Source: Enchytraeus crypticus
Lineage: Eukaryota > Annelida > Clitellata > Enchytraeida > Enchytraeidae
Reading direction: 5' to 3'
NCBI GenBank assembly: GCA_905160935.1
Contig: CAJHZI010000664.1
Coordinates: forward strand, 906,501 to 970,500
Length of the DNA: 64,000 bases
Shown here: positions 37,555 to 56,344 of the stretch, in pieces
Position numbering within the stretch: position 1 is the stretch's first letter
How the letters are laid out: the number at the start of each line of letters is the position of its first letter
The notes under the pieces: model-generated
Seen by the model: the letters and a program-made list of their open reading frames with translations, nothing else
What the model was told of the DNA's origin: nothing
Databases searched by the model: none
Program-made: the position numbers and the translations under genes

Positions 37555-37719
37555 ACTTAAAGTCAGAAATGGCCCGTCAAGAAAAAATGCTACAAATTCT
37601 GGTATTAGGTGTATGTTTTTGCTACACTAATGCTTGCTCAGCTGGACTGGAATTGCATACTGAGAAGAATGGTGGCAACGTAGTAGAACGGTGTTGTAAG
37701 AAAATAACGTGTAAGAAGG
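37555..37719 (+). CDS. TNFR-like exon 1: signal peptide
   Basis: Coding from ATG at 37569 (context CAGAAATGG). A good acceptor (pyrimidine-rich TTTTGTTGTAG) precedes 37555, so a 5' UTR exon may lie upstream. Ends AAGAAGG|GTAAGC, phase 1, after CCKKITCKK. Confidence 0.82.
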
Positions 37720-40700
37720 GTAAGCTCATTGGTTTCGAACTGAAACTGCTATGCTTCATCTTATGTAGAATTTACATGTATATCATATTTTAGCTAACTC
37801 TAGAAACGCACTCCTATGAATATTTATGTATTACAAAAGTATTGGAGACAGTTGGGGTACCGATAGACAGTTGATAAATGTATCGAGAAATAGAAAGAAG
37901 AGTTGGATAGGACACATTCTAAGGGGAAAGGTCTATTAATAGAGGTCATAGAAGGTAGAATGGAAGGAAAAAGAGGCAGGGGCAGGCCGAGATTAGGTAT
38001 GTTAGATGATTTAAAGACCCACTCATATGTAGAAATGAAAAGAAAATCGGAAAACAGAGAAGAGTGGAGGCGTTATATACCATGGACCTGCTAGTAGGCA
38101 GTGAACTAAGAGAGACTAAGAGAGAGACTAAAGTTTTATAACATGTGCCTGATCCAGATGCAATTCTAATGAGTAGGGGTTGAGATAATCAGTTCATATT
38201 CTACTACTTGAATCCACATATAATCACGTTTCTGATTGCCATTTAACACCCATAAACCTTTATTTTAAATTCTAAATTATCGCAATTATGTTCTGTATGT
38301 TATGGCTTTGTAATATTGTGAGTTTTACTATTTCATGTATGGTAGAAGTGGCTCATACTTGTGTCGTAGGGTGTTTGAATATTTAATCTTATAGGGCTCA
38401 TCAAATTATTGCTTTTTAAATGGTTGTAAAATTCTATATATTCCTAGTGAAGTTTGTGCTAATTTTTAATACTACATTCTGATGAGCACTTTAGAAGCAT
38501 CAGATTTGACCTCTTGCCCTCTACTTCAGGTTGAGATGGGACGTGACCCTTTGATTTTAGATATGCTCTAAAAGCTTTTCTTATTATGAAAGCCATTATT
38601 ATCTGGAGCACTGCCTATTGAGATTTAATAAATAAGAAAGTTTAAGGATTTAAACGAAATTAGATTCTGTGTAATTCAAAAAGTGTTTATTCTCTTTTCA
38701 TAACACAATATTAGTATCGTTTAGTGTAGCTTCATATGTATGGTGTGCCTCAAGCTCCATTCTTGGTCCTATCCTCTTCAACCTATATACAACACCCTTA
38801 AGCACTCTAATCTCTTCTCATTCTATTGATCATGAACTATATGCTGATGACACTCAAATGTACACTTGTTTCACCCCTAACTCTTACTCTGATGCTGAAA
38901 CCCTCTTGCAACAAAGTTTTCATTCTATATCCTCTTGGATGTCTGCTAATTTTTTTGCACTTAATTCATCTGAGACTGAATTCTTGTTGGTTGGGACACC
39001 TCAACAGCTTCTGAAGCTGTAGGAAAACTCTTTCGTTATCTTCGGATATTACAAAAACACCTGTTTCATCTATGAGAAATCTCGGTGTTATCCTTGATAA
39101 ACACCTAACCTTCCACGAACACATAACTAAAACTTCACAAGTTTTCATATCCGTTTCTATCATGTTTCATGTATCATCGTTATCATGTTTCTTTCATATC
39201 CGAGATCTTCGTCGAATACGTCCATATATGTCACGTGAGACGGCTGCTACAATTGGTGCTGCCATTGTGCAATCGAAATTGGACTACTGCAATTCCCTGC
39301 TTTTAAATCTTCCTGGCTGTGAGATTGATCGATTGCAGTTGGTTCAGAATTCTCTTGCGTGTGCAATTTTTTGTAGTTCCAAGTACTCGCATGTTATGCC
39401 CAGTTTAAAGTCTTTGCACTGGCTAAAGATTAAAGAGCGAATCATTTACAAAACAGCTTCGTTAACCTGTAAATCAGTCACCATCTCTGGACAAACTTGT
39501 ATGTCTCACTTGATTAGAGTGATGCAGCCTTCTGTTACTTGGTCTTCTAAATTAATTACTTTTGTGAGACCTAGCTTACCTTCGCGCTCTAAGCAATCTA
39601 ATTGTTCTTTCCAGCATGCTGCACCGCAGATCTGGAATTCTCTTCCATCCAATCTCCGGAAATCTTCATTTGAAGCACATCGGCCTCTGCTTTCCTATGA
39701 TCAGTTCCATAGGCAGTTGAAGTCCTATCTTTTCCATCTCTCTTTTCCATCCAGTGTCCATGAGCGGCGACCAGCGCCTAAACCTCCTTCTCTTTAATAC
39801 CCTGTACTTTGGACTGATTATCTGGATTTTGGAATTTGCACCTTTTTGGACCTTCTTTTTGCTCGCCGGCTTGATTTTGTCTCAATAGTGCTCGATGTTT
39901 TCAGTGATGACAGTAGCGCTCTAATTGTTGTTATGTTATATATGTTATGCTTAGGATTTCAACCAGAGTTATGCCTATCAGAAGGTATGGAAGCTCGGTG
40001 TGTTCCGTGCAGGAGTGGGACATATAAAAATTTTGAGTCGGCTTCTACTCTGATGGGGTCTAAGTGTCTTCTTCACTGGATATGCTCAGGTTTGCAACAT
40101 ATTGTTGTTTGAATTGTTTATTAGCTATTGATCCACTGTGAAAACTTTAATATGAAATCTTTTATTGAAATGCATTTATATTTCATTTAGTTATCTTATA
40201 GGCTTCCCTGTGTTGGTCCGGGTTGTTTGAAGAATTGATCTACCGGTGACTGCTCATGTCGTAACAAAAACAACAACAACAATTAGAGTGCTACTGTCAT
40301 CAATGACAACATTGAGCACTATTGAGACAGAATCAAGCCGGCGAGCAAAAGGATGGTCCAAAATTGTGCAAATTCCAAAATCCAGATAATCAGTCCAAAG
40401 TACAGGGTATTAAAGAGAAGAAAGTTTAGGTGCAGGTCGCTGCTCATGGAAAAGATAGGTCTTCAACTGCCTATGGAACTGATCATAGGAAAGCAAAGGC
40501 CGTGCTTCAAATGAAGATTTCCGAAGATTAGATGGAAGAGAATTCCAGATCTGCGGTGCAGCATGCTGGAAAGAAAGATTAGATAGCTTAGAGGGCAAAG
40601 GTAAGCTAGGTCTCACAAGAGTAATTAATTTAGAAGACCGAGTAACAGCAGGCTGCATCACTTTAATCAAGTGAGACATACAAGGTTGTCCAGGGATGGT

Positions 40701-43700
40701 GATGGACTTATAGGTTAACGAATCTGTTTTGTAAATGATTCGCTCTTTAATCTTTAGCCAGTGCAAAGACTTAAAAATGGGCGTAACATGTGAGTACTTG
40801 GAACTAAAAAAAATTGCACACGCAAGAGAATTCTGAACAAACTGCAATCGATCAATCTCACAGCCAGGGAGATTCAAAAACAGAGAATTGCAGTAGTCCA
40901 ATTTGGATTGCACAATGGCAGCACCAATTGTGGCAGCTGTCTCACGTGACAAATATGGACGTATTCGACGAAGATCTCGGATGTGGAAGAAACATGCTTG
41001 TGAAGTTTTAGTTATGTGTTCGTGGCAGGTTAGGTGTTTATCAAGGATAACACCGAGATTTCTCACAGAAGAAACAGGTGTTATTGTAATATCCGAAGAT
41101 AACGAAAGAGTTTTCCCATTCAGCTTCAGAAGCTGTTGAAGTGTCCCAACCAACAAGAATTCAGTCTTAGATGGATTAAGTGCCAAAAAATTAGTAGACA
41201 TCCAAGAGGATATAGAATGAAAACTTTGTTGCAGGAGGGTTTCAGCATCAGAGTAAGAGTTAGGGGTGAAACAAGTGTACATTTGAGTGTCATCAGCATA
41301 TAGTTCATGATCAATAGAATGAGAAGAGATCAGTGAGCTTAAGGGTGCTGTATATAGGTTGAAGAGGATAGGACCAAGAACGGAGCCTTGAAGCACACCA
41401 TACTTTAAATGGGAAGGTGAAGAGACGTACTCCATCACTTTCACACTAAAAGAATGATCCGTCAGATAGGAGGAAAACCAATCGAGAACAGTTCCACGAA
41501 TACCGAACCAGGAAGAAAGACGTTCCAGAAGAATATTGTGATCAATGGTATCAAAAGCGGCCGAAAGATCAAGCATACATAATCCAGTTAAGCGTTTTGT
41601 GCACATGGCATTAACAATAGAATTGCACACAGATAGAAGCACCATTTCAGTTGAACGATGCTTAGTATAAGCAGCTTGATGCTTATTAAATAGATCATTG
41701 CAAGAGAGATAAGTAGGAAGCCTCTGAAGAACAATTCTTTCAGTGAGTTTAGATATGTACGACAGATTATATATAGGCCTGTAATTCGACAATGATTCCT
41801 TAATAAAGTGTGGGCTTTTTAAGCAATGGAGTAATAACTGCAAGCTTAAAAGCGTAGGAAATTTGCCAGTAGGGAGAGAGAGAGAGGTTAACAATCAATG
41901 TTAATACAGGAGCAAATATGTGAATACACTTCTATAAAAGAGAGGTTGGGATAGGGTCCAAGTCGCAATGTTTGGCTGGAGAGTCTAAAACTAATTTAGT
42001 AATCTCTTCAATTGTAACTGGAGTGAAATTAGAAAGCTCATCCTTGTAATGAGTCTGTACTGGAGTATGAGGAGTAGAGTTAGGAGCTGGAGAGATAGAT
42101 GCTCTAAGATTGCTTATCTTATCACTAAAGTAACTGGAAAATTGTTCAGGAAGTGACTCAACAGGAGTAGAAGGAAGAGAAGGAGAAATAGATCTATGTA
42201 AAAGATCATTAATAGTTTTCCATAATCTCTTGACATTCACAGCCTTACTGACCAAAGAGGAGTAGTACTCTTTCTTAGCATTAGCAATAGCAGTACGATA
42301 AATCTTGTGTTGCAAATTAGAAACAGTTTTCCAAAAATCGGAATGGGTATGACGCCACTTTCTTTCAGCTCTACAGCTTGCAGCCTTTAGCTTTCTCAGA
42401 TCAGAGGTGTACCAAGGGTTAGATTTCTTAAGCTTCTTGGTTGTTAGAGGTGCATGCTTATCAAGTAGAGATGAAAGAGTAGTGTTATACTGTTTTACTA
42501 ATTCATCAAGATCATTAGAAGGAGACTTGATCTAAGTCTCAATTAATTGTTAACGTAGAAGGCGACTAAGGCACTAAGATCCATACCAACGTCAGAAAGG
42601 GCATTCGGTGAGCGCCTAGGCTCCAGAAATTGCTACAAAAATTTAAATGAATGGAAAAGTCTCAAATAGGGGATTGGTTGGCGGTGTGGTGTAGGACAGA
42701 GAAGATTTGAGACAGTCTATTTCTATCCCAACCCTGGTTAAACTGGGATTTAAGGGAGGATGATGATGATAATGATAAGTTATTTTATAGGCTGTTTTCG
42801 TGTATTTATTTAGTTTACTCATTTAATTTTGATAGTTTTGGAAATCTTTTCTTTATGCTTATTCTTTTGTCTCTGTTGACCATTAAGAGCCGTAATGCCG
42901 TTATTAACGTCGGTTTTTTTCTCTCAAATGATGCGATATCAGTGATGGACGAGCCCAGTATTAATGTAATGGTATATACATGTATAAATAGTCCATGTAG
43001 TTGAAAACCATCGAATTATATAAGGTTTTACGGTACTTGGTAGATTAATAGTAGTGCCGTAGAAATGTTAATAATTCAGACTTGTAATTAATTCTACTAG
43101 TTGTTTGTAGCATTGCTATCAAATTCTATCTATTGTTTGTAGCATTACCTACCAGAGCTTGAATTCTTTCGTAATGCCATTTTATGTCTGGGTTTCCCGT
43201 GTTGTGCCCATGACATTGAAGATTAGATCAACCCTTATCTTCTTGTGTCTTACTAGGCAACTAAACAAAAATTGAGGAAGGCACTGGGAGTCCACCTCTG
43301 AAGATATTTTCCCCTAGCTTTTGACTATAATAGCATATGGATAAGGTGTAGTATTTTATGAAAGGATGAACCTGTTGATCCATGAAATGCTTCATATGGA
43401 ACTTAAAAGCAAACTCTTGGTATGAAGATGTACCTTAGATCTGTCACTTGACAGAACACTAGGGAGACTATGTTTTTGTAATTGTAAAAATTTGTACTGT
43501 AATGAACAGTGTGAACTCCTATAAAGTAATTTTTAATTTGTTCTCAGTTTAAAGTGTTGTGTGTTTCGGCTTTCTGTTCCTTCAATTTTATGGCATTAAT
43601 TTAATCTAAGTCGCTATGCTTACATCAATATACAAGTGGATTGTGACCTTTTTTATTAGTCAATTCCTTTTTTGCTATTAGCTCAAAAAGGTCTCAAAAT

Positions 43701-46700
43701 ATCTCGAGAAGGGAACGCGACCAGTAACACTGTATGTGAATGCGATGCTGCTCGAGGTTCCGTGAGAGATCCTTCGAACCCTAGCGACAATCCTACAGAA
43801 TGTTTATGGCATCCAGATGATGTATCGATCAAGGGTTTGTTACTACAGTTCTAGTTATTCAGAGTATTAGGAGATTGGAACTTAATTTTTTTCTGTTAAT
43901 TTCTTTAACTCTTTGATTGCTACAATTATTATGTGATAAGTAATCATTGCCTTCTAAATCTAATATAAATTAGAAAGGGCGGAATGATTAAGTTAAATTT
44001 TTAAATTTTATCCGCATTTCTCAAATTATTTGTTTATATAATTGTTTATTTATTGACTTTTAAGCATTTGATTGTGCTCAGTTCGCAACCATGGCTCAGT
44101 GCTAATTTTTTAAGAAATGGAACTAGCTTTGAGCTACATAAACATTGATCTCAATTATTGAGCTCATAATATTTTACATGTTAGTTATTCTATTGTTGTT
44201 AAGCTGATTAGCATCATTGTTCATCATTTATTATTGGTCGCACAAATTGTAGTTGTACGGTTAATTTTCAATAATTATTAATTCGTTCTCATTTTTGTTT
44301 GAAACGCAGGACATAGCATTACAAGTTACCCTACTCGAGCAATTTCATTGGAATCGACCACCGAGATTAAAGACGGGTAGCCTTTTCACTCTAATCTGAC
44401 TGTTAATCCATTTGTTTTGGTGATGCTTTGGCATTGTATCATTTTAAGTTATCCTGTTTCGATTTAAGATTCATCATGTAGTGATGAATGAGTAATATAG
44501 GATACTAGATGATTCTTGACACAAATTTCAAGATTCTCAGCAAAAATACTTCAAATTAGGAGCAGAAAAAGATTTTCTTGCCAAATTCAGAAAGAGAAAT
44601 TGATGGAGTAAGAGTAAAGCTGCAATCACAAGTTCCAGATTAAGTAAAAAAAAAAAAAAAGAGGTTATACGGTATAATTTAAACCTTTAGGAGCATACAG
44701 TAATTGGTATTGGATGTATGGAGGTTATTCAAACTCTTTTAAAGAGATAAAATTTAAAGGAACGTTTAAACTAAATTTTATTATGATTAATGGTGTGACA
44801 TTAAATCCTTTGGTAAGAATAACCTATGCAAGAGAATTTTAAATGTAATGCTAGTTTATGTCTGAAGGAGTTGTAAACCACAATTCCATGAGTTGCAATA
44901 GTCAGACTTTGACGGAACTGCTGATGGCAAGAGTTAGAACTGAATTATTTTAGAGAGTTATTAATCTGAGAGAGAGAGAGGGAGAGATAAACAAGAAATG
45001 GAAAAATATGGATATTAGGATAGATAATTAATTTCTGAAAATGTGAGTTGTAGGTTGCTATCTTATTATGAGTAGAACTTAAATTTTAATAACCCCTGAA
45101 AATCTGAAAGTTTTACAAATCGAATTTAATCTAATTTATCACTTGTATGTTGCCATACAGCCCTAAAGGGAGCCTCCAAAAGAGATGAGATGGATCTCCA
45201 TCTCAGACCCTGTATGAAAGAATATGGCAACATTGAACTCATCTAGTTTCAAACATCATTGATATCTCAAGCAGAAACACTCTGTTTAACTGGTATCGTT
45301 CAGTCAAAGATGATAAAAATGAAGGATCTCCCAACTACTATTGATCCCAAATTCTGACATCTTCTTAGCTTGTTTTCAGAGATGTTTTTTAAGAAACTGC
45401 TGTTGTGTGAACTTTATTAGACCACCAGTGTCTTACATCCTGTTTAGCTTGCTGAACTTTGATATGGATTGACTGACAAAGCCAGTTGACCAGTGTTTGC
45501 TAGGAATCAGATTTTCAAGGTGACATGAGAGTTTCTAAACAATGACGCTGATCCTCTTCTGAGAAACAAATCAAAACTTTTTGGTCATATGGTTACACAT
45601 ATTACAACCCCATGAACTACTTGCTTAGTTTTTTGTTTTTGTAGTTTTTGTTTCCTCTTTCCATTCCATGGTTATTATTTATCTTTGGCCTTCTGTTGGC
45701 GCGTAGATTGCAGCCGGCGTTAATATGAGAATAACCTTCCAACAACCTCGGACTTTTTCATTCAAAGCTGCCAACCATCTGTCTTCCAAGGTGATCACCC
45801 ACAGAGTACTAACAGGATGTGGCGTGGCTTAACTTTGTTCAGTTAACGCGCAGTTAAACCAAATGCGCTAAATCTCGCTCACTACATCTTTACGACCTTC
45901 TTTATGCCTTTGCAAACTCAGTATCTCTAGCCTGCAAAAATGCTCTTAATGTAAAAGTACTTGCTATAAAAGTATTTACTATAGAGGCAAGCAGAGTAGT
46001 GATCTCAGGGAATGACGCTCTTGCCCTGTAAATGTTAGTCGAAGCTAAGGAAGGCATAGAAGGCCCTACTTGTTAGAAGCAGAATCCCCTCAAGAATAAT
46101 GGTATATCAAAAAAGGATTCTTAGGTTATTTAAAGATCCACTCGGATGTGGACATGAAGAGGAAAACGGAAGATAGAAACGAGTCGAGGTGTTATAAGCC
46201 ATGGATCTGCCAGTAGACGGTGCACTTGGAGAGAAACTACTTGTGAAAGTACTTACTTAAGTATTTAAGGAATTACTTATTAGTACTTATTAGTACTTAT
46301 TAGTACTTACTTTACTACAACTTACTGCTGAACTGTATTTGGGCAGGAAACAATATCACTAGACTGCAACTTACTGACTCTCGGCATTTGGCTGATAGTG
46401 TCTTCTGATGATGAAGTACATTCATAGAGAATGTTAAAGTTTTCATATTTTAATTTTTAGGTTTTTAATATTAAATTATACTAAAATGCTTGCTTGTAAA
46501 GTCACAGATTAAATCAGTTATTGATTTGCGGCAAAATACTGGTTGAATTTTACTGGTTGAATTTGTTTTATTGTCTTTTCACACATAGCTTAGGAACACT
46601 TACTACCATCATCATCGTCGTCATCATCGTCATCGGTGTCCTGGTTGGTGTTTGTCTATACATTGTCAGACGTAGAAAATTTTTGAGGAAGAAAGATCTC

Positions 46701-47737
46701 GAATCAACTGGTAGGAATTTGTATTCTCTAAAACATCTGTTCGAATATTGTTATCTAGTTTCATCAAAACAATAAATAATGATATAAATTAAGAAAAATA
46801 TGATGGTCTAATTGGATTTTAATATAGATAAATGCAATTAAATACTCGCTTATTAAGATCACTGTTTTGGCAGCTGTCATTTATGAACTTATTTAGTCTT
46901 TGCTGTTTTAATTTTTAAGCAAGAGTTTTCTTTATAACTAATTGCTTATTGTGTTCTGAAAATCTGAATACTATATACTAATAATATGAAACTTTTAGTA
47001 ATATGATAATGATAAATTGTAGTTCTGTTGAGTCAAAATCTTTACTAATTATAATTAGACTTATAAAAACCTGATAGCTTTAAAAGAGTCTTAAGACACA
47101 TCTTTTTGCTAGATCATTCCATGTAAATTCTGCTCACTGATAAATCTCTCAGATTGTGATATTTAACCTATGTTACATATGATAGTTATTTGGTATTTTA
47201 GTGATTTTGACTGTGTGCATTTTATCGTATATTGCTTGTTTTACTGTAACTGTTGTAAAGTATTGAGATGTCTTAGCGTGATATACTCTTTTAAACATAA
47301 ATATATTTAGTTGTAGTCGAACTCTACTTGTGACTTAGTTGGTCTACCAGTAGACGTATTTCAATTTTAAACTAAGAGTAGCAAATAATAATATAATTCT
47401 AGCTAAACAATTATATTTATTAATAGTTAATGGTTGCTATTTGAAGAGGTCAGAACTGTTACATTTGCTGGAGCCTCAGATTAATCAGATTACTGCTTCA
47501 CTGATGTGGCCTTTATAACTTTTGAAATGTATTAAAGTTATGCAGAGTAGGTGATTCTGTTTTCAAGTTTTGCTATCTTTCATATATTTTATCTTGGTTA
47601 ATGGTTGTGAACAGTTATGACCTATCATCAGTCAGTATCAGTCAGTAATTGTAAATATAAGAGTCCTATACAAAAGGACTACAAAAATTATAGTATCAAA
47701 GCCTTCATATGGATATGGTTTGATAGGAAAAGTCATG

Positions 47738-47817
<80 letters not shown>

Positions 47818-50608
47818 TTTCTGAAAGTTAAGAACTACTCCACTCTATTTTTTACATTTGGCCTCAGGAATCAGTTTCTGCTTATGAAATATTAAGCCTA
47901 CTCTAGTTAAAATTTACAAGGTACTGTAAGTCTTTATATCCAGCTATTGACGACTTAATGTATAGATAACTATTTGCATATTTGTTTAACTTACATATAC
48001 TTTGTATATTTTTAAGGCTCTCCTGAAAGTAGGTCAAGTAAAAGTTCAGTGGGGGAGTCACTGTTGCCAACAGGTAATATCTACAATCTTGTTGTAATTG
48101 GTTGAGATTGCACTACAATGAAGTATATAGGCCGTTCATCTTCACCCAGTTGACCCTGTCAGAAGCTTGCTCAAAATCTACAAAACATATAAAAACCTCA
48201 TTTCCCTGTTCACATATGACTCGCAATACCTCTGTGGCTTCTCTTGTATCACACCCTTCTCTATTGTATTGTATTGTATTTCTTCAAAATTTACTTCAAA
48301 GCTAAGCCATTGTATACAAATAAGCACTTGAGAAGAGTGCGCAGATTGATGCTTCAGTTTAATAATCAACATACTGGGTAATAGAGGCACGAGCTAACCT
48401 AATTTCGCACGCTGTCATTGGTCCAGCAAATCTACTTTATTACATCCAAATTGTGATTTATTTAATGTCATATCTTCCGTGGATTGAATGCATTCATTTA
48501 ATTATTTTTAATATGATTTTTGATGCTTGCGATATTAAGCTTATTGTTATGTAGTCCAAACAATTCACTGAATTTTCTTTTTTGGTTATAGGGATAGTTA
48601 CTGATCTGGTAAAGTCCCTCTGGTCATATACATCTATGCTATATACATTCACAAGTCTTTGCAGTGTTTCTCCTACTAATTCTTTTAGGAATTTTACTAA
48701 CGTATCTTCAGTTTGTGCTGCTTTTCTTATCTTAATCTCTGTAATGGCTTTAGAAATTTCTTCTTTCATTAAATCTGGCCCTTTTTTATCGTCTTCTGTC
48801 ATAATTCTTCTTCTAACTTAAAATCCTCTGCAGTTGGCTTACTAATTGTTGTTGCTGTTGGCTTTTCCCCGTGTTGTGTGTGGGTTGTTTGAAGAATTGA
48901 TCAAACAGTGACTGCACATGTTGTAAAAGGTGACTAAGCACTAACATCCATACCAACGTCAGAAAAGGGATTCGGTTGATAAGCGCCTAGGCTCCAGAAA
49001 TTGCTATACAAATTTTAACGAATGGAAAGTCTCAAATAGGGGATTGAATGATGGATGATATGATGTAGGACATAGAGGATTTGAGACAGTCTGTTCATAT
49101 CCCGATCCTAGTTAAACTGGGATTCAAGGAAAAATGATGATAATGATGATGTTGGTTTACTAATATTGTCATACAAATCCTCTACATTTTCCCTCCATCA
49201 TTCATGTTATCTCGTATATTTCTGTCTTTGTTCCCCATATTTGTTATTTACACTGATGTTTCTCGCACCTACTTTCTTCTTGTTTCCTGCTAACTTCTTG
49301 ATACAAAAAATCTGAAGGCCCTCTATGTGTAGCTGCTTTAGTGATAAAAACTATAACTCGCATGGTACTAAGTGACGCTGCTAAACTATGGCTAAATTAA
49401 TCTGTTTAAACTGCTTTATTTGTAATTGCACTACTATGCCATTATTTTCACGTATGTATTGTAATTATGTTTGTATGTTCTCTTTCGTATACTCCTATCT
49501 ATGGTTTCACATTGTTTCGAAATAGACAAAGATATTATCCATCTATTGAGACAAAAATAAATAACTGATACATGCCGTCTGTTATTTATTCTTGTGTCTA
49601 ATAAGAAAGCTAATAGTCACAACTGTATTTTTTGTAACTGATGAAGTATTATGGCAGGAGGGTGTATATGCCAGCCTTTCGTAGCTTTGTTTTTTTAAGC
49701 TTTTAAGTTAATATTTTTACTTGCTATTTAAACTTCACGTAAACTTGCCTGATAGCGTGTAATTATGGAAAACATTTAATATACTGATACAGAAAAGTTT
49801 TTGTGAATTAATTATCGTTATTATTATGGTTATATAATTACATTACATTGTGTACCTATTATTGGATATTTTAATTTTTAGTGCTTCTCATTTGAAGACA
49901 ATGTTACATGTAGTAAGGTGTTGTCTTTGATTTCAGAACAATTGTTTTAAGCACTGTCTCTTCTTTTTAAGCGTAAAAACAATGGTAGATAGCAAGCTGT
50001 TATTCTATCATTGTATTGTTTTGTTATCAAATTATTTAGCTGTATTGTTTACAGATGATATAATTATTAAGGCGCTAGATTAATTATTAATGGCTAGTAT
50101 TATTTCCTGTGTTAGTCAGCTTGATAGGGCAGTTTGTGCCTTCTATGATGGCTACAGGATAAGATATTTTTAATTTGATTTCGATTTAAATGTTTGATGT
50201 ATTTACATTTATCGATATGATGTGTGTATGATGTGATTTCTTTTTTCTCTTGAGTTTTTTTATTCAGTTATGGCGTGTGGTTTTTAGCTATTTTTAGCTA
50301 TTGTTTTAGCACTACGCTAAAACAATCTTGACCGTGTGTTCACAATTTACATGTATATTACACGATACAAACCTTTTCAGAATAATTAAATGAGTAGACT
50401 AAATTCTGCTGTGGTATATTATGTTGAATTTTTCAAGTCGCAGTCATGTATTATGTGCAGATGATGAAAATATTAAGGGGAATTTACGGAAAAGCGAGTC
50501 GCTCAATGGTTGGTATATTTTATTTCTGTAATTTTCTTAATCTTTTTATTTGCAACTCAGCATTTGTAACTTTTTAAGTCTACTTGTCACTTGTGAGATA
50601 AAATTTGA

Positions 50609-50656
<48 letters not shown>

Positions 50657-51047
50657 GTAGTATAAATAAGTACTTCTTAATGATGGACCTATAGCATACA
50701 ACTCTTCCAATAAATTCTATCGTCAGCTTTCCTTTTCTTCTTCACTATATGCAAATTTCTCTGATTACATATTTATATTATATGCTATGTGTATACATTG
50801 ATTTAGTTGCAATTAATAAACATAATTCTCTCCCTTTCTCTTTTTCTATATCTCTCTCTCTCTCTCTCTCTATTTTTTCAACCATCCCTCTTATGATATG
50901 TTCTATGCAGCATATCCATTAAAAAATTATGAATTTACAAGTAGGGATAAATTATATATCAATAAATCCATGTTCTTAAAACCTAAATAATTACCTAGAA
51001 TTAAAAGAGGGGCTATGTATTTGGGTGTCTCTAATTCTATTTCTTAA

Positions 51048-51087
<40 letters not shown>

Positions 51088-53300
51088 TTAAGAAATAGAA
51101 TTAGAGTGACTTGACTTAATATCATATATATATGATATTAAGTCAAGTAGGATGGTTTTTCCAAAATAAATCTAAACTAATATATTTAAATATAAATTTT
51201 GTCATTTTTGTAGAATTTTTCTAAATTCATACATTAGGAATTGGTAAATATCAATTCATTGTACTAGTCTTGTGTCTGAGCTTTTTTTTTGTTTTGATAT
51301 GCTTGAAAAAACTCTTGCTTTCTTGAATCTTTATATGCTGACTTTTGGTTGTTTTTTATATTTTTAAAATTGTAATTTACTTTTTTAAAATAATTTTTTA
51401 TTGCTAATAAAAATTGCGTTCAGGAATATAGACTAATATAATAGAATATTTATTTGAATCAAAATATAAATAAATTATGTATGTTGGCAATATGATATCA
51501 ATTCAGTAGCCTTTTTCTCAAGCTAAAAGTTACATTTAGTAAAGTTTATACTTTGTGCTTCTCTCAGTTTGTTGATGTAGAAAGTTTGAATACAAATGAT
51601 GCATAATGAATATAAACAAATGAGAAGATATGCCATATGTCTGACTACTTCAAGAGAAAGAGAATTGTATATATATTTATAATTATTTATTGCAAAAGTC
51701 TGATTGGTAATTGCTTGGTAAATATGAGTGAGTAAATTGTTAGTTGTTAATTGAATTTACAAAAAAATGTCTATGGTGGGAAGAGATGTGTTTCAACCTG
51801 CAACGGAAAGTGGAGGTTGTAGAACATGAGCGAAGATCAGGAGACAGACAGTTCCAAACTGTAGAAGCGGAGAAAGAAAGTGAACGTCTACTTAAGGAAG
51901 TCAGAATATTGGGAATTTTGAGCAGTTTGGCATCGGAAGAATGAAGCTTCCGAGAAGGTATTGGATTAAGAGATCAGAAAGGTATAAAGGTTTGCCAAAG
52001 AGAAGTATATTAATGAAAGTTAACAGAGCAATTTTATAATTAATTCTTTGAACCAAAGGAAGGAAACCAATGAAGATTATTAAGCAAGGAACTAGAGGTG
52101 GCCTGAAGCCTTGAGGATTGACAGACAACACGTGCTGGAGAATTCTGAACGCGTTGCAAACGCATGAGAGAAAAGAAGGTGGCTTACCTTCTTTGTAAGC
52201 CACTAGTCCAGTTCTGGAGCAGTGAAACTGGCTCCAGAACTGCCAACATGGCTCCAGAGCTGTCCAGTTCTGGAGCCATGTTTCACTTTAAGTGAAACTG
52301 GCACCAGAACTGGACTCATCTTGAGCAGTGTATGGACGAGGAAAGCGCTTGGCTAGAGGTGATACATTGCTGTGTGATGCTATAATATATAATAGTTATA
52401 ATAATATATGATGCTGTATGTTATTTGCTACGATGTTATACGCCAGCAGGAGGATAGTGGAGTAACGCCGTCTTTGGTTCAGTGGACCAAATGTGATTAT
52501 GCTCTGTAATATAAAATGATTATGTTATGATTATGCTCGAGATATGATTATGTGCAGGTAGTGTGGATATTGGGTTGGCCGTAAAAGGAAGCGAGTTGAA
52601 CAGTGGTAGGTATAATTCTTTTCTATAATTTTCTTAATCTTTCTATTTGCTACTCATCTATATTGTAACCTTTCAAGTTTACGTGTAATTGTGATACATA
52701 CTAGAGGTGATACATAACTAAAGAAGGTGGCTTACCTTCTTTGTAAGCCACTAGTCCAGTTCTGGAGCAGTGAAACTGGCTCCAGAACTGCCAACATGGC
52801 TCCAGAGCTGTCCAGTTCTGGAGCCATGTTTCACTTTAAGTGAAACTGGCACCAGAACTGGACTCATCTTGAGCAGTGTATGGACGAGGAAAGCGCTTGG
52901 CTAGAGGTGATACATTGCTGTGTGATGCTATAATATATAATAGTTATAATAATATATGATGCTGTATGTTATTTGCTACGATGTTATACGCCAGCAGGAG
53001 GATAGTGGAGTAACGCCGTCTTTGGTTCAGTGGACCAAATGTGATTATGCTCTGTAATATAAAATGATTATGTTATGATTATGCTCGAGATATGATTATG
53101 TGCAGGTAGTGTGGATATTGGGTTGGCAGTAAAAGGAAGCGAGTTGAACAGTGGTAGGTATAATTCTTTTCTATAATTTTCTTAATCTTTCTATTTGCTA
53201 CTCAGCTATATTGTAACCTTTCAAGTTTACGTGTAATTTGTGAGATAAAATTTTATGAACATTTTAATGTAGGAAAGAAAAGATTATGTATTATCGTTGG

Positions 53301-53363
<63 letters not shown>

Positions 53364-53997
53364 ACTCAGCATTTGTAACTTTTTAAGTCTGCTTGTCACT
53401 TGTGAGATAAAATTTGATATCTCTCTCTCTCTCTCTCTTGCTCTCTCTCTCTCGTAGTATAAATAAGTATTCCTAATAATATACCACAGCAGAATAATAA
53501 ATTCTGCTGTGGTATATTATGTTGAATTTTTCAAGTCGCAGTCATGTATTATGTGCAGATGATGAAGATATTGAGGGGAAATTACCGAAAAGCGAGTCGC
53601 TCAATGGTTGGTATATTTTATTTCTGTAATTTTCTTAATCTTTTTATTTGCAACTCAGCATTTGTAACTTTTTAAGTCTGCTTGTCACTTGTGAGATAAA
53701 ATTTGATATCTCTCTCTCTCTCTCTCTTGCTCTCTCTCTCTCGTAGTATAAATAAGTATTCCTAATAATATACCACAGCAGAATAATAAATTCTGCTGTG
53801 GTATATTATGTTGAATTTTTCAAGTCGCAGTCATGTATTATGTGCAGATGATGAAGATATTGAGGGGAAATTACCGAAAAGCGAGTCGCTCAATGGTTGG
53901 TATATTTTATTTCTGTAATTTTCTTAATCTTTTTATTTGCAACTCAGCATTTGTAACTTTTTAAGTCTGCTTGTCACTTGTGAGATAAAATTTGATA

Positions 53998-54087
<90 letters not shown>

Positions 54088-56036
54088 AAATTAATTGTGG
54101 ACTATTGGCTAGCGTTAAATAGTTTCTGTTAGCTGCCAACAATTAAGCATCAAATTAAAGTAAAAAGTCTCCTAGAATTTTTATTATTGATCATCATCAT
54201 CATCCTCCCTTGAATCCCGGTTTAACCTGGTCAGGATACAAATAGACTATCGCAAATCCTCTCTGTCCTACACCACACCACCAGCCAATCCCCTATTTGA
54301 GACTTTTCCATTCGTTGAAATTTTTGTAGCAATTTCTGGAGCGTAGGCGCTCGCCAACCGAATGCCCTTTCTGACGTTGGTATGGATCTTAGTGCTTTTG
54401 TCGCCTTGTACGACACGTGCAGTCACCGGTTGGTCAATTCTTCAAACATCCCGGACACAACACGGGGAGAATTTCAATTATTGATGAGTAGATTAATCTG
54501 TTGAAGTATAATTTTTTTATTCAGTGACGATTTTATTATATGCTTCGTTGGAGGTAACAGCTTTTTCAACTTTATTTTATTTGAACTGTAATTGTGTTTT
54601 CTAGGTTTAAGGTCTTAAAATGTAAGATTCTTATTCAACGCAATCTTGGCCTTGAACTGTTTTGATCTCGCTTTCTCTTATAGTCTTTGTACACTTAGTC
54701 GTCAACGTGTGGTGTTTTGGCGTCTTCTACCGAGTCTGCCCGAGATGTCCCTGACATTGCCTTATGACAAGGAACCGGACATTAAGTTCTTATTGATATT
54801 GATTGATTATTGATTAATGTAGGACACGGCACTAGTCAATTCCATTTCTAGTTCTGCCCTTTTCTAGTTCTAGTACCTCTCCAATTCTCTGATTACAAAA
54901 TTCTGGGGAAAATTAAATTGTCACTTCCACAGATTAACAATATATGTATGTTATTTTATGTAGGTATTAATTCTATAAATGTTGCCAGTTTGGATATCTA
55001 AAGTGAATAGAGAATTTTTCTTATTTATTTATATTGCTAGTTATTGTTTTAACCGTTTTCCTGATATGTGCTTTTTTGCATTTATCCCACTTTTCTGCAG
55101 GGTCCGCTTGTCGACATGCTTGTCTCCATTTTGCACACTCGTGAACATCTTCCAGAGTTACGTTTACTATATCTTCAATTATTCAATCCAGCCAATGCTT
55201 CTTGGGTCTCCTTCTCTGACGACGGTTTCTGCATACAGTTTCATCACTATCTGGATCACCGAATGGTTGCCGCTTCTTATTACATGGCCGTGTACCAGCG
55301 CAGCCTTTCCTCTCACATTTTTTCAGTTATTGGCGTTACTCTGACAGACGTCATTAAAGGGAACGTGGTCAAGTCTTGTTCGACCATGACTTCACCACCT
55401 CATCCTCATTTCCCTGGCGTTATGCTGGTTCCTGGACGTTGCTAACCAATGTTCCGATACGCACAACGCGACAGGTCTACTGAAATACTTTTAAACTTTG
55501 TCCTTGAATCGGATAGGCACAGAGGACTCCAGTAATCTGCCACCACAGAATTTGCTAGGGCCCTGGCGTCTGGGAGAGAGTCACCGTCACTACTGATGAC
55601 TGAGCCGCGATACTTAAAGCGCATCACTTTCTGGAGGTCTTCCCCGTCAATGCTTATTATTCCGGTTGTTTCGGGGTCCCACTCCAAGTATTCGATCTTC
55701 CATTATGTTCAACCGTTTTCACTGAACCGATCCTTCCATCTCTGTGTTTGGAGCTGTAGCTCTTGTTGTTACTCTTGCTCGCCAGGAGAACATCTTCAGC
55801 ATAAGGAACTCTCTATTATGTGATATTAATAGCGTATCCTAATTTGTGGAAAATATTTGTGAAGAAATAGCTCTTAGGTGTATGCTAACTATCAACTAAT
55901 TATATAGTCATCATCCTTTTACCTTTGAATTGTTCATGATGTTGCAGAGCCGACAGCTAGTCCAGGGGATATCTGTATAATAGGAGACAAAAATTCGATA
56001 ACATTGATCTTCGAACTCCAGAAAACGTCAGGTTGA
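37569..56036 (+). CDS. TNF-receptor-superfamily-like type I membrane receptor (12 exons)
   Basis: Joined exons give 1014 bp and 337 aa with all eleven junctions in frame. Residues 1-25: signal peptide (MLQILVLGVCFCY). Residues 42-116: Cys-rich ectodomain of about two TNFR repeats: CCKKITCKKG, ARCVPCRSGTYKNFESAS, KCLLHWICS, then REGNATSNTVCEC, the typical end of a TNFR module with an N-glycosylation site (NAT, 107-109). Residues 117-169: Ser/Thr/Pro-rich stalk. Residues about 173-197: one membrane helix (TIIIVVIIVIGVLVGVCLYI), then a basic stop (RRRKFLRKK). The tail of about 130 aa shows no death domain and no clear TRAF-binding motif. It is built from six short exons, five of 48 bp, all phase 1-1. 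Expected at the cell surface; ligand unknown. Exact orthologue not recognised. Introns are full of LINEs. Confidence 0.85.
37880..38135 (+). mobile_element. LINE-D C-terminal fragment
   Basis: RKSWIGHIL, IEVIEGRMEGKRGRGRPRLG, MLDDLKTHSYVEMKRKSENR and EEWRRYIPWTC with stop, then CAGTGAACTAAGAGAG. This is the conserved C-terminus of a widespread LINE group with GKRGRGRPR; the clade name is uncertain. In TNFR-like intron 1. Confidence 0.85.
38728..39935 (+). mobile_element. LINE-A copy, 5'-truncated, in TNFR-like intron 1
   Basis: Starts within reverse transcriptase motif B (GVPQAP..LG), then DHELYADDTQMYTCFTPNSY in another frame (YADD), the 241-residue open frame 39072-39797 (MRNLGVILDKHLTFHEHITK, RRIRPYMSRETAATIGAAIV, LDYCNSLLLNLPGCEI, HAAPQIWNSLPSNLRKSSFE) and the 3' tail with (ATTGTTGTT). 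A CR1/L2-type C-terminus. Its tail ends about 20 bp before the exon 2 acceptor. Confidence 0.9.
39955..40089 (+). CDS. TNFR-like exon 2: Cys-rich repeat
   Basis: 135 bp, phase 1-1: FQPELCLSEGMEARCVPCRS, GTYKNFESASTLMGSKCLLH, WICS. Acceptor TTATGCTTAG|GA, donor TCAG|GTTTGC. The reading frame from the preceding LINE-A tail runs into this exon, but that is chance. Confidence 0.88.
40203..40263 (+). mobile_element. Rep-GAT head, left half of a copy split by LINE-A
   Basis: CTGTGTTGGTCCGGGTTGTT, TGAAGAATTGATCTACCGGT, GACTGCTCATGTCGTAA, the 5' end of the family. The rest resumes at 42555. Confidence 0.8.
40264..42552 (-). mobile_element. LINE-A copy, longest in the window
   Basis: Minus strand, 3' tail (AATTGTTGTTGTTGTT) at 40270. 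A 494-residue open frame, 41894-40410, spans the reverse transcriptase: NYRPIYNLSYISKLTERIVL, LCMLDLSAAFDTIDHNILLE (motif A), YGVLQGSVLGPILFNLYTAP (motif B), DHELYADDTQMYTCF (motif C), LNPSKTEFLLVG (motif D) and the HAAPQIWNSLPSNL C-terminus. A second open frame, 42315-41932, carries the linker upstream (KKEYYSSLVSKAVNVKRLWK). One frame change between them. The endonuclease is missing (5' truncated). Sits in TNFR-like intron 2, antisense to the gene. CR1/L2-like; few breaks, so fairly young. Confidence 0.92.
42555..42775 (+). mobile_element. Rep-GAT right half of a copy split by LINE-A
   Basis: CGTAGAAGGCGACTAAGGCA, CCATACCAACGTCAGAAAGG, AGCGCCTAGGCTCCAGAAAT, TCTCAAATAGGGGATTGGTT, GTTAAACTGGGATTTAAGGG and a (GAT) tail. 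Continues the half at 40203-40263. Confidence 0.85.
42893..42960 (-). mobile_element. SINE-t fragment
   Basis: Inverse 3' part: TTAACGTCGGTTTTTTTCTC, GCGATATCAGTGATGGACGA, GCCCAG. Truncated. Confidence 0.5.
43190..43475 (+). mobile_element. Rep-GAGA copy, diverged
   Basis: CCCGTGTTGTGCCCATGACA, GAAGATTAGATCAACCC, GAAGGCACTGGGAGTCCACC, TCTGAAGATATTTTCCCCTA, GGTATGAAGATGTACCTTAG, GACAGAACACTAGGGAGA. Lies 200 bp before TNFR-like exon 3. Confidence 0.75.
43682..43834 (+). CDS. TNFR-like exon 3: end of Cys-rich repeat and stalk
   Basis: 153 bp, phase 1-1: QKGLKISREGNATSNTVCEC, DAARGSVRDPSNPSDNPTEC, LWHPDDVSIK. Acceptor TTTGCTATTAG|CT, donor AAGG|GTTTGT. Confidence 0.88.
44310..44376 (+). CDS. 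TNFR-like exon 4: stalk
   Basis: 67 bp, phase 1-2: HSITSYPTRAISLESTTEIK, D. Ser/Thr-rich, likely O-glycosylated. Acceptor GAAACGCAG|GA, donor ACGG|GTAGCC. The phase-2 end is matched only by the membrane exon. Confidence 0.8.
45710..45880 (-). mobile_element. SINE-5S copy
   Basis: Minus strand: GAACAAAGTTAAGCCACGCC, ACATCCTGTTAGTACTCTGT, GGGTGATCACCTTGGAAGAC, GGTTGGCAGCTTTG. The TTAGTACT, GGGTGA.CACCTTGGAA and GCAGCTTT elements keep the order of 5S rRNA. In TNFR-like intron 4. Confidence 0.8.
46040..46250 (+). mobile_element. LINE-D 3' remnant
   Basis: GATTCTTAGGTTATTTAAAG, CGGATGTGGACATGAAGAGG, GATAGAAACGAGTCGAGGTG, TTATAAGCCATGGATCTGCC, AGTAGACGGTGCACTTGGAG: the same 3' end as 37990-38110, decayed. 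Confidence 0.7.
46589..46710 (+). CDS. TNFR-like exon 5: transmembrane segment
   Basis: 122 bp, phase 2-1. LGTLTTIIIVVIIVIGVLVG then VCLYIVRRRKFLRKKDLEST: one helix of about 22 hydrophobic residues and a basic cytoplasmic stop. Acceptor ACACATAG|CTT, donor ACTG|GTAGGA. Confidence 0.87.
47742..47815. repeat. (TA)n microsatellite
   Basis: Pure TA for about 72 bp in TNFR-like intron 5. Confidence 0.95.
48017..48073 (+). CDS. TNFR-like exon 6: first tail micro-exon
   Basis: 57 bp, phase 1-1: G, SPESRSSKSSVGESLLPT. Ser-rich. Acceptor TTTTTAAG|GC, donor ACAG|GTAATA. Flanked by AT-rich intron and then LINE-D. Confidence 0.78.
48100..48835 (-). mobile_element. LINE-D reverse transcriptase N-terminal fragment
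   Basis: Minus strand: GPDLMKEEISKAITEIKIRK, VKFLKELVGETLQRLVNVYS, DFTRSVTIPITKKENSVNCL, DYITISLISQASKIILKIIK (start of the fingers), and, at 48100-48250, pieces of the EQGNEVFICFVDFEQA-type motif A region. In TNFR-like intron 6, antisense. Confidence 0.8.
48872..49156 (+). mobile_element. Rep-GAT SINE, full length
   Basis: CCGTGTTGTGTGTGGGTTGT, TTGAAGAATTGATCAAACAG, GACTGCACATGTTGTAAAAG, ACCAACGTCAGAAAAGGGAT, GCGCCTAGGCTCCAGAAATT, TCTCAAATAGGGGATTGAAT, GTTAAACTGGGATTCAAGGA, then (GAT)n. Confidence 0.85.
50461..50508 (+). CDS. TNFR-like exon 7: 48-bp micro-exon B0
   Basis: Phase 1-1: D, DENIKGNLRKSESLN and G start. Acceptor TATTATGTGCAG|ATG, donor CAATG|GTTGGT. Acidic/basic and serine-rich; the same exon recurs at 53559 and 53848 with changes only in four codons. 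Confidence 0.8.
50612..50660. repeat. (CT)n microsatellite
   Basis: Follows the B0 unit; the same CT tract follows each B unit downstream. A second CT run lies at 50825-50872. Confidence 0.9.
51029..51148. repeat. Two adjacent palindromes
   Basis: 51029-51106: arms CTCTAATTCTATTTCTTAAT and its inverse around (TA)n. 51109-51148: a perfect 40-bp palindrome with half ACTTGACTTAATATCATATA. Lies in the intron between micro-exons B0 and A1. Confidence 0.9.
51765..52172 (-). mobile_element. LINE-C C-terminal fragment
   Basis: Minus strand: [52 protein letters not shown] and, past a frame change, FNLQ/CRLKTH pieces, the same protein as 29230-29500. Abuts the start of duplication unit A. Confidence 0.8.
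52558..52605 (+). CDS. TNFR-like exon 8: 48-bp micro-exon A1
   Basis: Phase 1-1: SVDIGLAVKGSELNS. Acceptor GATTATGTGCAG|GTAG, donor CAGTG|GTAGGT. Aligns base for base with the B exons, so A and B descend from one exon. Confidence 0.78.
53106..53153 (+). CDS. TNFR-like exon 9: 48-bp micro-exon A2
   Basis: Same as A1 except one synonymous base (GCC/GCA, Ala). Phase 1-1, identical splice sites. Confidence 0.78.
53307..53361. repeat. (CT)n microsatellite
   Basis: Pure CT, followed by a partial B-unit 3' flank (AACTCAGCATTTGTAACTTT) at 53362. Confidence 0.95.
53559..53606 (+). CDS. TNFR-like exon 10: 48-bp micro-exon B1
   Basis: Phase 1-1: DDEDIEGKLPKSESLN. Acceptor TATTATGTGCAG|ATG, donor CAATG|GTTGGT. 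Confidence 0.78.
53848..53895 (+). CDS. TNFR-like exon 11: 48-bp micro-exon B2
   Basis: Identical to B1 in all 48 bases, with identical splice sites. Confidence 0.78.
54000..54088. repeat. (CT)n microsatellite
   Basis: Impure CT run that ends the B array. Confidence 0.95.
54187..54472 (-). mobile_element. Rep-GAT SINE, full length
   Basis: Inverse family order: (ATC)n, CCTTGAATCCCGGTTTAACC, GCCAATCCCCTATTTGAGAC, GGAGCGTAGGCGCTCGCCAA, CTGACGTTGGTATGGATCTT, GTACGACACGTGCAGTCACC, GGTTGGTCAATTCTTCAAAC. In the last TNFR-like intron. Confidence 0.88.
54635..54815 (+). mobile_element. LINE-F 3'-end fragment
   Basis: GATCTCGCTTTCTCTTATAG, GTGTTTTGGCGTCTTCTACC, GATGTCCCTGACATTGCCTT, ATTAAGTTCTTATTGATATT, then GATTGATT. 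Forward counterpart of 32980-33226. Confidence 0.7.
55060..55800 (-). mobile_element. RTE-like LINE C-terminal fragment
   Basis: Minus strand: EWDPETTGIISIDGEDLQKV, MRFKYRGSVISSDGDSLPDA, then PITEKM, EERLRWY and NVTLEDVHECAKWRQACRQA, DPAEKWDKC. This is the post-palm and C-terminal region of RTE-type LINEs. Several breaks; dead. The plus-strand open frames over 54979-55445 are antisense shadows of it. Confidence 0.85.
55948..56036 (+). CDS. TNFR-like exon 12: terminal exon
   Basis: 89 bp: E, PTASPGDICIIGDKNSITLI, FELQKTSG, TGA at 56034. Acceptor GATGTTGCAG|AG takes the phase-1 end left by every tail exon. No domain recognised. This exon rests on phase and splice context only. Confidence 0.62.
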
Positions 56037-56094
56037 ACATCTGCAAAAATTCTGCTGAGTCATACGAGATTCCGTCCACTGATATAGAGACGAA

Positions 56095-56100
56095 AATAAA
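56095..56100 (+). terminator. Candidate polyadenylation signal of the TNFR-like gene
   Basis: AATAAA 59 bases after the stop codon. Confidence 0.45.
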
Positions 56101-56344
56101 ACGCATTAATGATTGACAGATGACTGTCAATCATACTTTGCTAAAGTCCATTGCTGGCGTTTAGCAGAGTATAGGTTTATATACAAGTAGGTATTCTACA
56201 AGAAAAAAATGGTAGTGCTATGGCAAGATCTTACGGTGCACTTTACATGGCGCCGGGTTTCTTCAGTGTAGCTGTTGATGAAAGTTATACCGTTTTAAAA
56301 TAATTGAGTGTAATAAAAAGTACATGCTGCTGTACATGTATAAC

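Follow-up and report, generated by a model that had tools for sequence, protein, structure and literature searches.

A tandem array of five 48-nucleotide candidate cassette exons in the predicted cytoplasmic tail of a TNF-receptor-like gene of Enchytraeus crypticus

We analyzed a stretch of 64,000 nucleotides (nt) from the annelid Enchytraeus crypticus (assembly GCA_905160935.1, contig CAJHZI010000664.1, positions 906,501 to 970,500), hereafter the window. Its plus strand carries a gene for a protein resembling TNF receptors, and within that gene lie five short related units, B0, A1, A2, B1 and B2 (Table 1). Twelve joined intervals yield a single open frame, 337 codons long before its stop codon. 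Its translation runs from a signal-like start through a Cys-rich region, a stalk, a hydrophobic helix and a basic juxtamembrane segment, continues with the Ser-rich exon 6 and then the five units of 48 nt, and closes with a last exon. Each of the five intervals is preceded by GTGCAG, followed by GT and open in phase 1. An earlier examination of the letters of this DNA (the sequence-only reading) had placed all five correctly, and was also right about their length of 48 nt, their AG acceptors and GT donors, and their phase 1-1 borders. It had also held that any subset of them could be included in frame, and 32 of 32 inclusion patterns do keep the frame, giving 18 distinct proteins of 257-337 aa. 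We put at about one half the probability that the array consists of tandemly duplicated, frame-preserving and alternatively included cassette exons in a TNFR-like cytoplasmic tail, recently duplicated again.

The receptor-like gene

The extracellular part and the helix exon form the firmest portion of the gene model. As read from the translation, the N-terminus is hydrophobic and a hydrophobic helix is followed by basic residues, which would suit a type I single-pass membrane protein with a signal peptide. The Pfam family TNFR_c6 (PF00020) matches a domain split over exons 2 and 3 with E 0.003 and 18.4 bits, covering all 39 profile positions without reaching the curated cut-off of 29.4. A search of the PDB at E<=1 returned 16 sequences, 15 of which bear TNFRSF or HVEM names; the exception is named ELR1. 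The best match is RANK, with E 0.0035 over the complete chain and 0.038 over its best-matching stretch, and the chains matching approximately residues 39-119 are those of RANK (E 0.0035-0.0062), HVEM (0.0087-0.25) and CD40 (0.011-0.014). These Pfam and PDB matches, weak as they are, support the receptor likeness proposed by the sequence-only reading. We have fair confidence, and no more, that the predicted host protein is TNF-receptor-like, short of a proven member of the superfamily.

The tail offers few known signals. No death domain was found among the nine Pfam families matching the receptor protein at E<=1. Three TRAF patterns have zero matches in either the 143-residue or the 63-residue tail, and dileucine and Yxx-phi patterns likewise match neither. 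Some members of the TNF receptor superfamily lack a death domain or a TRAF-binding motif in the tail. Toward its 3' end the gene model is less firm, and exons 6 and 12 are candidates. Translation could also run on from exon 5 for 21 residues before meeting a stop. The region of the last exon holds a second open frame (56022-56116) of 31 residues, ENVRLN...RIND (ENVRLNICKNSAESYEIPSTDIETKIKRIND), entered in phase 1 via a possible alternative acceptor before 56022; this frame may be the true C-terminus of the receptor.

Genome searches covered 524 Mb in 802 contigs, with the window in contig 569. They revealed no convincing close paralogue of the receptor: 8 of 11 matches are its own exons and the remaining three have E 4.2-6.7. 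A six-frame search with PF00020 found 13 places, four of them above the cut-off, and the receptor gene is not among the 13. Another TNFR-like gene of the same genome lies on the minus strand of contig 525 (63214-63576), where an open frame of 181 aa contains three adjoining TNFR_c6 matches, all above the curated cut-off. Seven 20-kb stretches starting at 10 of the 13 places contain 2-50 direct-repeat pairs each, many of short period, with at most 12 pairs per stretch among those listed, and so leave room for a counterpart of the array in other TNFR-like genes.

Table 1. Features of the receptor-like gene and its array, in window positions
Feature	Position	Strand	Remarks
Exon 1	37569..37719	+	start codon, signal-peptide-like stretch and first cysteines, from translation
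Exon 2	39955..40089	+	TNFR-like cysteine-rich region
Exon 3	43682..43834	+	TNFR-like cysteine-rich region, continuing
Exon 4	44310..44376	+	stalk, phase 2 end
Exon 5	46589..46710	+	transmembrane helix and basic juxtamembrane segment; hydrophobic run then RRRKFLRKK, from translation
Candidate exon 6	48017..48073	+	57 bp, phase 1-1, Ser-rich tail; homology to micro-exons not detectable
Lone right arm upstream of B0	50403..50429	+	complementary to left arms before B1 and B2
Candidate micro-exon B0	50461..50508	+	48 bp
Tandem duplication with A1 and A2	52172..53238	.	offset 548, 519 bp aligned, 2 mismatches
Candidate micro-exon A1	52558..52605	+	48 bp
Candidate micro-exon A2	53106..53153	+	48 bp
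Tandem duplication with B1 and B2	53363..54031	.	period 289, 2.3 copies; starts with B-type 3' flank
Hairpin upstream of B1 acceptor	53469..53527	+	20 consecutive pairs; -38.5 kcal/mol for 53470-53570, z -7.8
Candidate micro-exon B1	53559..53606	+	48 bp
Same inverted repeat upstream of B2 acceptor	53758..53816	+	from inverted-repeat search
Candidate micro-exon B2	53848..53895	+	48 bp, same sequence as B1
Candidate last coding exon (exon 12)	55948..56036	+	entered in phase 1, TGA end; uncertain

Common descent of the five units

Over their 48 nt, B1 and B2 are identical at 48 positions, A1 and A2 at 47, B0 and B1 at 44, and A and B units at 25-28. A 191-nt B1 unit used as DNA query against the genome recovered B2 (99%), B0 (97%), A2 (77%, E 1.5e-25), A1 (80%, E 2e-16) and a 3'-flank fragment, with 6 of 6 matches inside the receptor locus. 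Likewise, 7 of 8 matches of an A unit fall in the locus, and the eighth, on contig 613, spans query positions 133-217, which are intron only. This search skips very common words, and absences hold at that sensitivity. Comparison of the DNA thus confirms the predicted origin of all five units from one ancestral unit, found at this locus alone at the sensitivity of the search. The sequence-only reading had derived the five from one exon; the single ancestor stood, on the DNA matches between A and B, but as an exon it is a candidate.

We accept the kinship of A and B because of the DNA comparison, not because of peptide similarity, as the B1 and A peptides are only weakly alike in a shuffle test (p 0.09). 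The SES/GSEL core proposed for all units is partly common, B units reading KSESLN and A units KGSELNS. Exon 6 was considered as a sixth member of the array and rejected, its peptide similarity being at shuffle level (p 0.36 against B1, 0.53 against B0, 0.99 against A). A profile built from the five units found no sixth unit in the window, the next match having E 0.44 and the five themselves being recovered by construction. In the same search the stretch 43883-43923, after exon 3, reached E 0.61 and was taken as chance.

From these identities we infer a history in which the A/B split would be oldest and the B0/B1 split next, followed by the A1/A2 and B1/B2 duplications. The B1/B2 duplication aligns over 380 bp with 3 mismatches, every one in a CT tract, and its unit contains CT microsatellites. 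A change in copy number is plausible on this sequence evidence because the A1/A2 and B1/B2 duplications are very recent. Between A2 and B1, directly after a CT microsatellite, lies a B-type 3' flank without a micro-exon of its own (53363-53452), which marks the duplication junction.

Other elements lie in the introns of the gene. In the one between B0 and A1 there is an inverted repeat of 39 nt that is perfect and has an AT core (51029-51106). Reverse-transcriptase frames of non-LTR retrotransposons occupy 40410-42315 on the minus strand in intron 2 and 39072-39797 on the plus strand in intron 1; for the frame at 40410-41894, the three best relatives show 73-76% identity across 97-99% of its length. 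Rfam has zero matches in the window at gathering scores.

Exon or intron: weighing the array

An AG, a GT and an open frame are insufficient as proof of an exon because they arise together too often by chance. Random 248-nt pieces of the gene region (n=500, exons and array included) hold a mean of 8.8 phase-1-open AG...GT intervals, and the five units hold 5-11. In the five-way alignment the 48-nt interval is the sole phase-1 candidate common to all five units; phase 2 has one common candidate, of 18 nt, and phase 0 has zero. The A units have stops in both other frames. The G+C content of the units is 0.375-0.479, as against 0.25-0.36 in the adjoining 100-nt stretches, and that of exons 1-5 is 0.404-0.464. 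A position-specific composition model trained on exons 1-5 scores B0, A1 and B1 highest in phase 1. Furthermore, the 48 nt contain zero indels despite A/B differences at 20-23 of 48 positions. The flanks have gaps of 10 nt and 1 nt upstream and 2 nt downstream in the multiple alignment; pairwise alignment puts 1-nt and 2-nt gaps instead.

The units also appear to change faster than their surroundings. Between B0 and B1 there are 4 differences in 48 positions, each of them nonsynonymous, versus 1 of 163 in the flanks (Fisher p 0.010), where the differences were counted manually and the flanks were likewise ended by hand at the limits of the sound alignment. A and B units differ at 20-23 of their 48 positions versus 13-15 of 82 downstream intron positions (84-nt stretch; p 0.0002-0.003), with 0.48-0.52 differences per nonsynonymous site and 0.26-0.36 per synonymous site. 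Such a pattern would be compatible with diversifying selection acting on real exons, or else with a constrained downstream intron. Together, the absence of internal indels, the best score of phase 1 and the concentration of substitutions in the interval lend modest support to exon status.

A number of observations weigh against exon use. When pairs were simulated with 27% substitutions and no indels, 613 of 1000 had at least one common AG...GT open interval. Null open intervals (n=395) reach the G+C of B1 in 42% of cases and that of A1 in 23%, and the step in G+C may follow from the open frame itself. The same null intervals score as high in the composition model in 4% (A1), 14% (B1) and 24% (B0) of cases, a modest distinction, and the model itself performs weakly: in leave-one-out trials the true frame came out best for exons 1, 3 and 4 but not for 2 and 5. 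The acceptors of the units have pyrimidines at 10-11 of 21 positions, versus 12-16 for exons 2-6 and 12. Direct-repeat pairs number 13 in the gene, compared with 10 and 4 in two 20-kb stretches of the window that overlap in part. None of 745 candidate homologues of the receptor in a protein collection reached E<=1, a weak test in which a spliced query met mostly unspliced predictions. The excess of change is not robust either, and we treat it as a lead. For B0/B1 the exon compared with the downstream 84 nt alone gives p 0.058, and the 60 nt upstream are identical; for A/B the contrast of nonsynonymous and synonymous change alone gives p 0.48; and when A2 and B1 are aligned pairwise with 60 nt upstream included, mismatches spread into the flank, the effect disappears (p 0.088) and 25 of 143 windows are equally divergent.

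These observations would fit units that are non-exonic, an intron stretch having been tandemly duplicated with its AG, GT and open frame copied along as chance features. The high chance rate of common open intervals, the equally G+C-rich null intervals, the direct repeats in control stretches, the weak acceptors and the want of a homologue to confirm the gene model all speak for this possibility, which we hold tentatively and take seriously. It predicts neither the absence of indels nor a concentration of change in the interval, though the concentration is the point found not to be robust. Should the near-identical copies, A2 and B2, be artefacts of assembly or haplotype, as their approximately 99% identity might suggest, every other explanation would still be compatible with it; a few sites do differ between copies and no second contig with a micro-exon unit was found in the genome search, and we regard such artefacts as highly improbable.

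If the units are exons, the manner of their use has to be considered. Under alternative inclusion, mRNAs would take up candidate units, every one of which would contribute 16 residues with a KSES (B) or KGSE (A) motif, and the pyrimidine-poor acceptors would make inclusion optional. Tail length and the number of phosphorylatable sites would then vary by splicing, and possibly by allele. CK2-type matches number 2 in the 63-residue tail and 6 in the 143-residue tail; four of these six fall at unit junctions, and motifs this short are common by chance. All copies might instead be constitutively included, the tail being a longer repeat made by exon duplication. Every copy does have an AG, a GT and an open frame, and the donors, which match the consensus at 6 of 9 places, are as strong as those of other exons (5-7); the pyrimidine-poor acceptors argue the other way, and we find constitutive use unlikely.

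The units might also exclude one another or compete for inclusion, if the left arms that precede B1 and B2 paired either locally or with upstream right arms and looped out different exons. Ivanov and Pervouchine (PMC6071210) propose that duplicating an exon together with a stem-loop arm creates competing structures and mutually exclusive splicing, and the arrangement here resembles theirs. The hairpin before B1 is stronger than its shuffles (z in Table 1), and all six pairs of left arms (B1, B2) with right arms (B0, B1, B2) have the same predicted duplex energy of -32.8 kcal/mol, a value without shuffle control. Local hairpins probably win over long-range pairing because both arms were copied in B1/B2, and would be expected to form first. 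Just ahead of B0 and A1 the sequence folds at shuffle level (z 0.05 and -0.25), and the A units have no hairpin element. Choice would exclude little, the peptides of A1 and A2 and of B1 and B2 being the same, and the reading frame would permit any number of units per mRNA, not only one. We judge this arrangement decidedly improbable. Our estimates for constitutive and mutually exclusive use refer to cases within exon use, and the confidences do not sum to one.

A bolder proposal is that the gene encodes a receptor of TNFR type with a signalling tail built as a cassette array that evolves rapidly and varies in copy number. In it, the 16-residue modules would diverge under positive selection at a faster pace than their introns, their number would be polymorphic owing to recent duplications, and duplicated hairpins would determine which modules are spliced in. 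We think it unlikely as a whole. If the units are used, one immune-type receptor gene could tune the length of its tail and the number of its phosphorylatable motifs by splicing and copy number, and with duplications this recent the birth of such an array could be watched. If they are unused, the locus teaches caution, since duplicated intron DNA readily yields aligned AG...GT open intervals.

Relation to known systems

Neural microexons regulated by SRRM4/eMIC have a UGC element near the acceptor and are very short, with a usual limit of approximately 27 nt, which the 48 nt of the present units exceed. All five acceptors here end in TGTGCAG, and that of exon 12 in TTGCAG.

In the literature searched on TNF receptors and exon duplication, by titles and abstract openings, no TNF receptor with a tandem exon array in its tail is described. 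From its sequence the array probably belongs to the known phenomenon of tandem exon duplication, in an unusual place. Compared with the TNF receptor superfamily (RANK, HVEM, CD40), the predicted protein has a similar Cys-rich region at approximately residues 39-119, a single hydrophobic helix and a short tail. It differs in its Pfam score below the cut-off, in the death domain and TRAF-type tail pattern that were not found, and in the exon array.

The structures near B1 and B2 are like those of PMC6071210 in that an intronic stem-loop was duplicated with the exon and several arms can pair with one another. They differ in that both arms were duplicated for B1/B2, so that local hairpins compete, and in the absence of the element from the A units. 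PMC9013439 surveys tandem exon duplication, with splicing that is alternative or mutually exclusive, in Dscam and other genes. The array resembles such cases in that homologous exon-like intervals, equal in length and symmetric in phase, follow one another within one gene and are flanked by introns that are homologous too. It differs in that its intervals are very short, lie in a TNFR-like cytoplasmic tail, are known here from genomic sequence, and may diverge faster than their own downstream introns.

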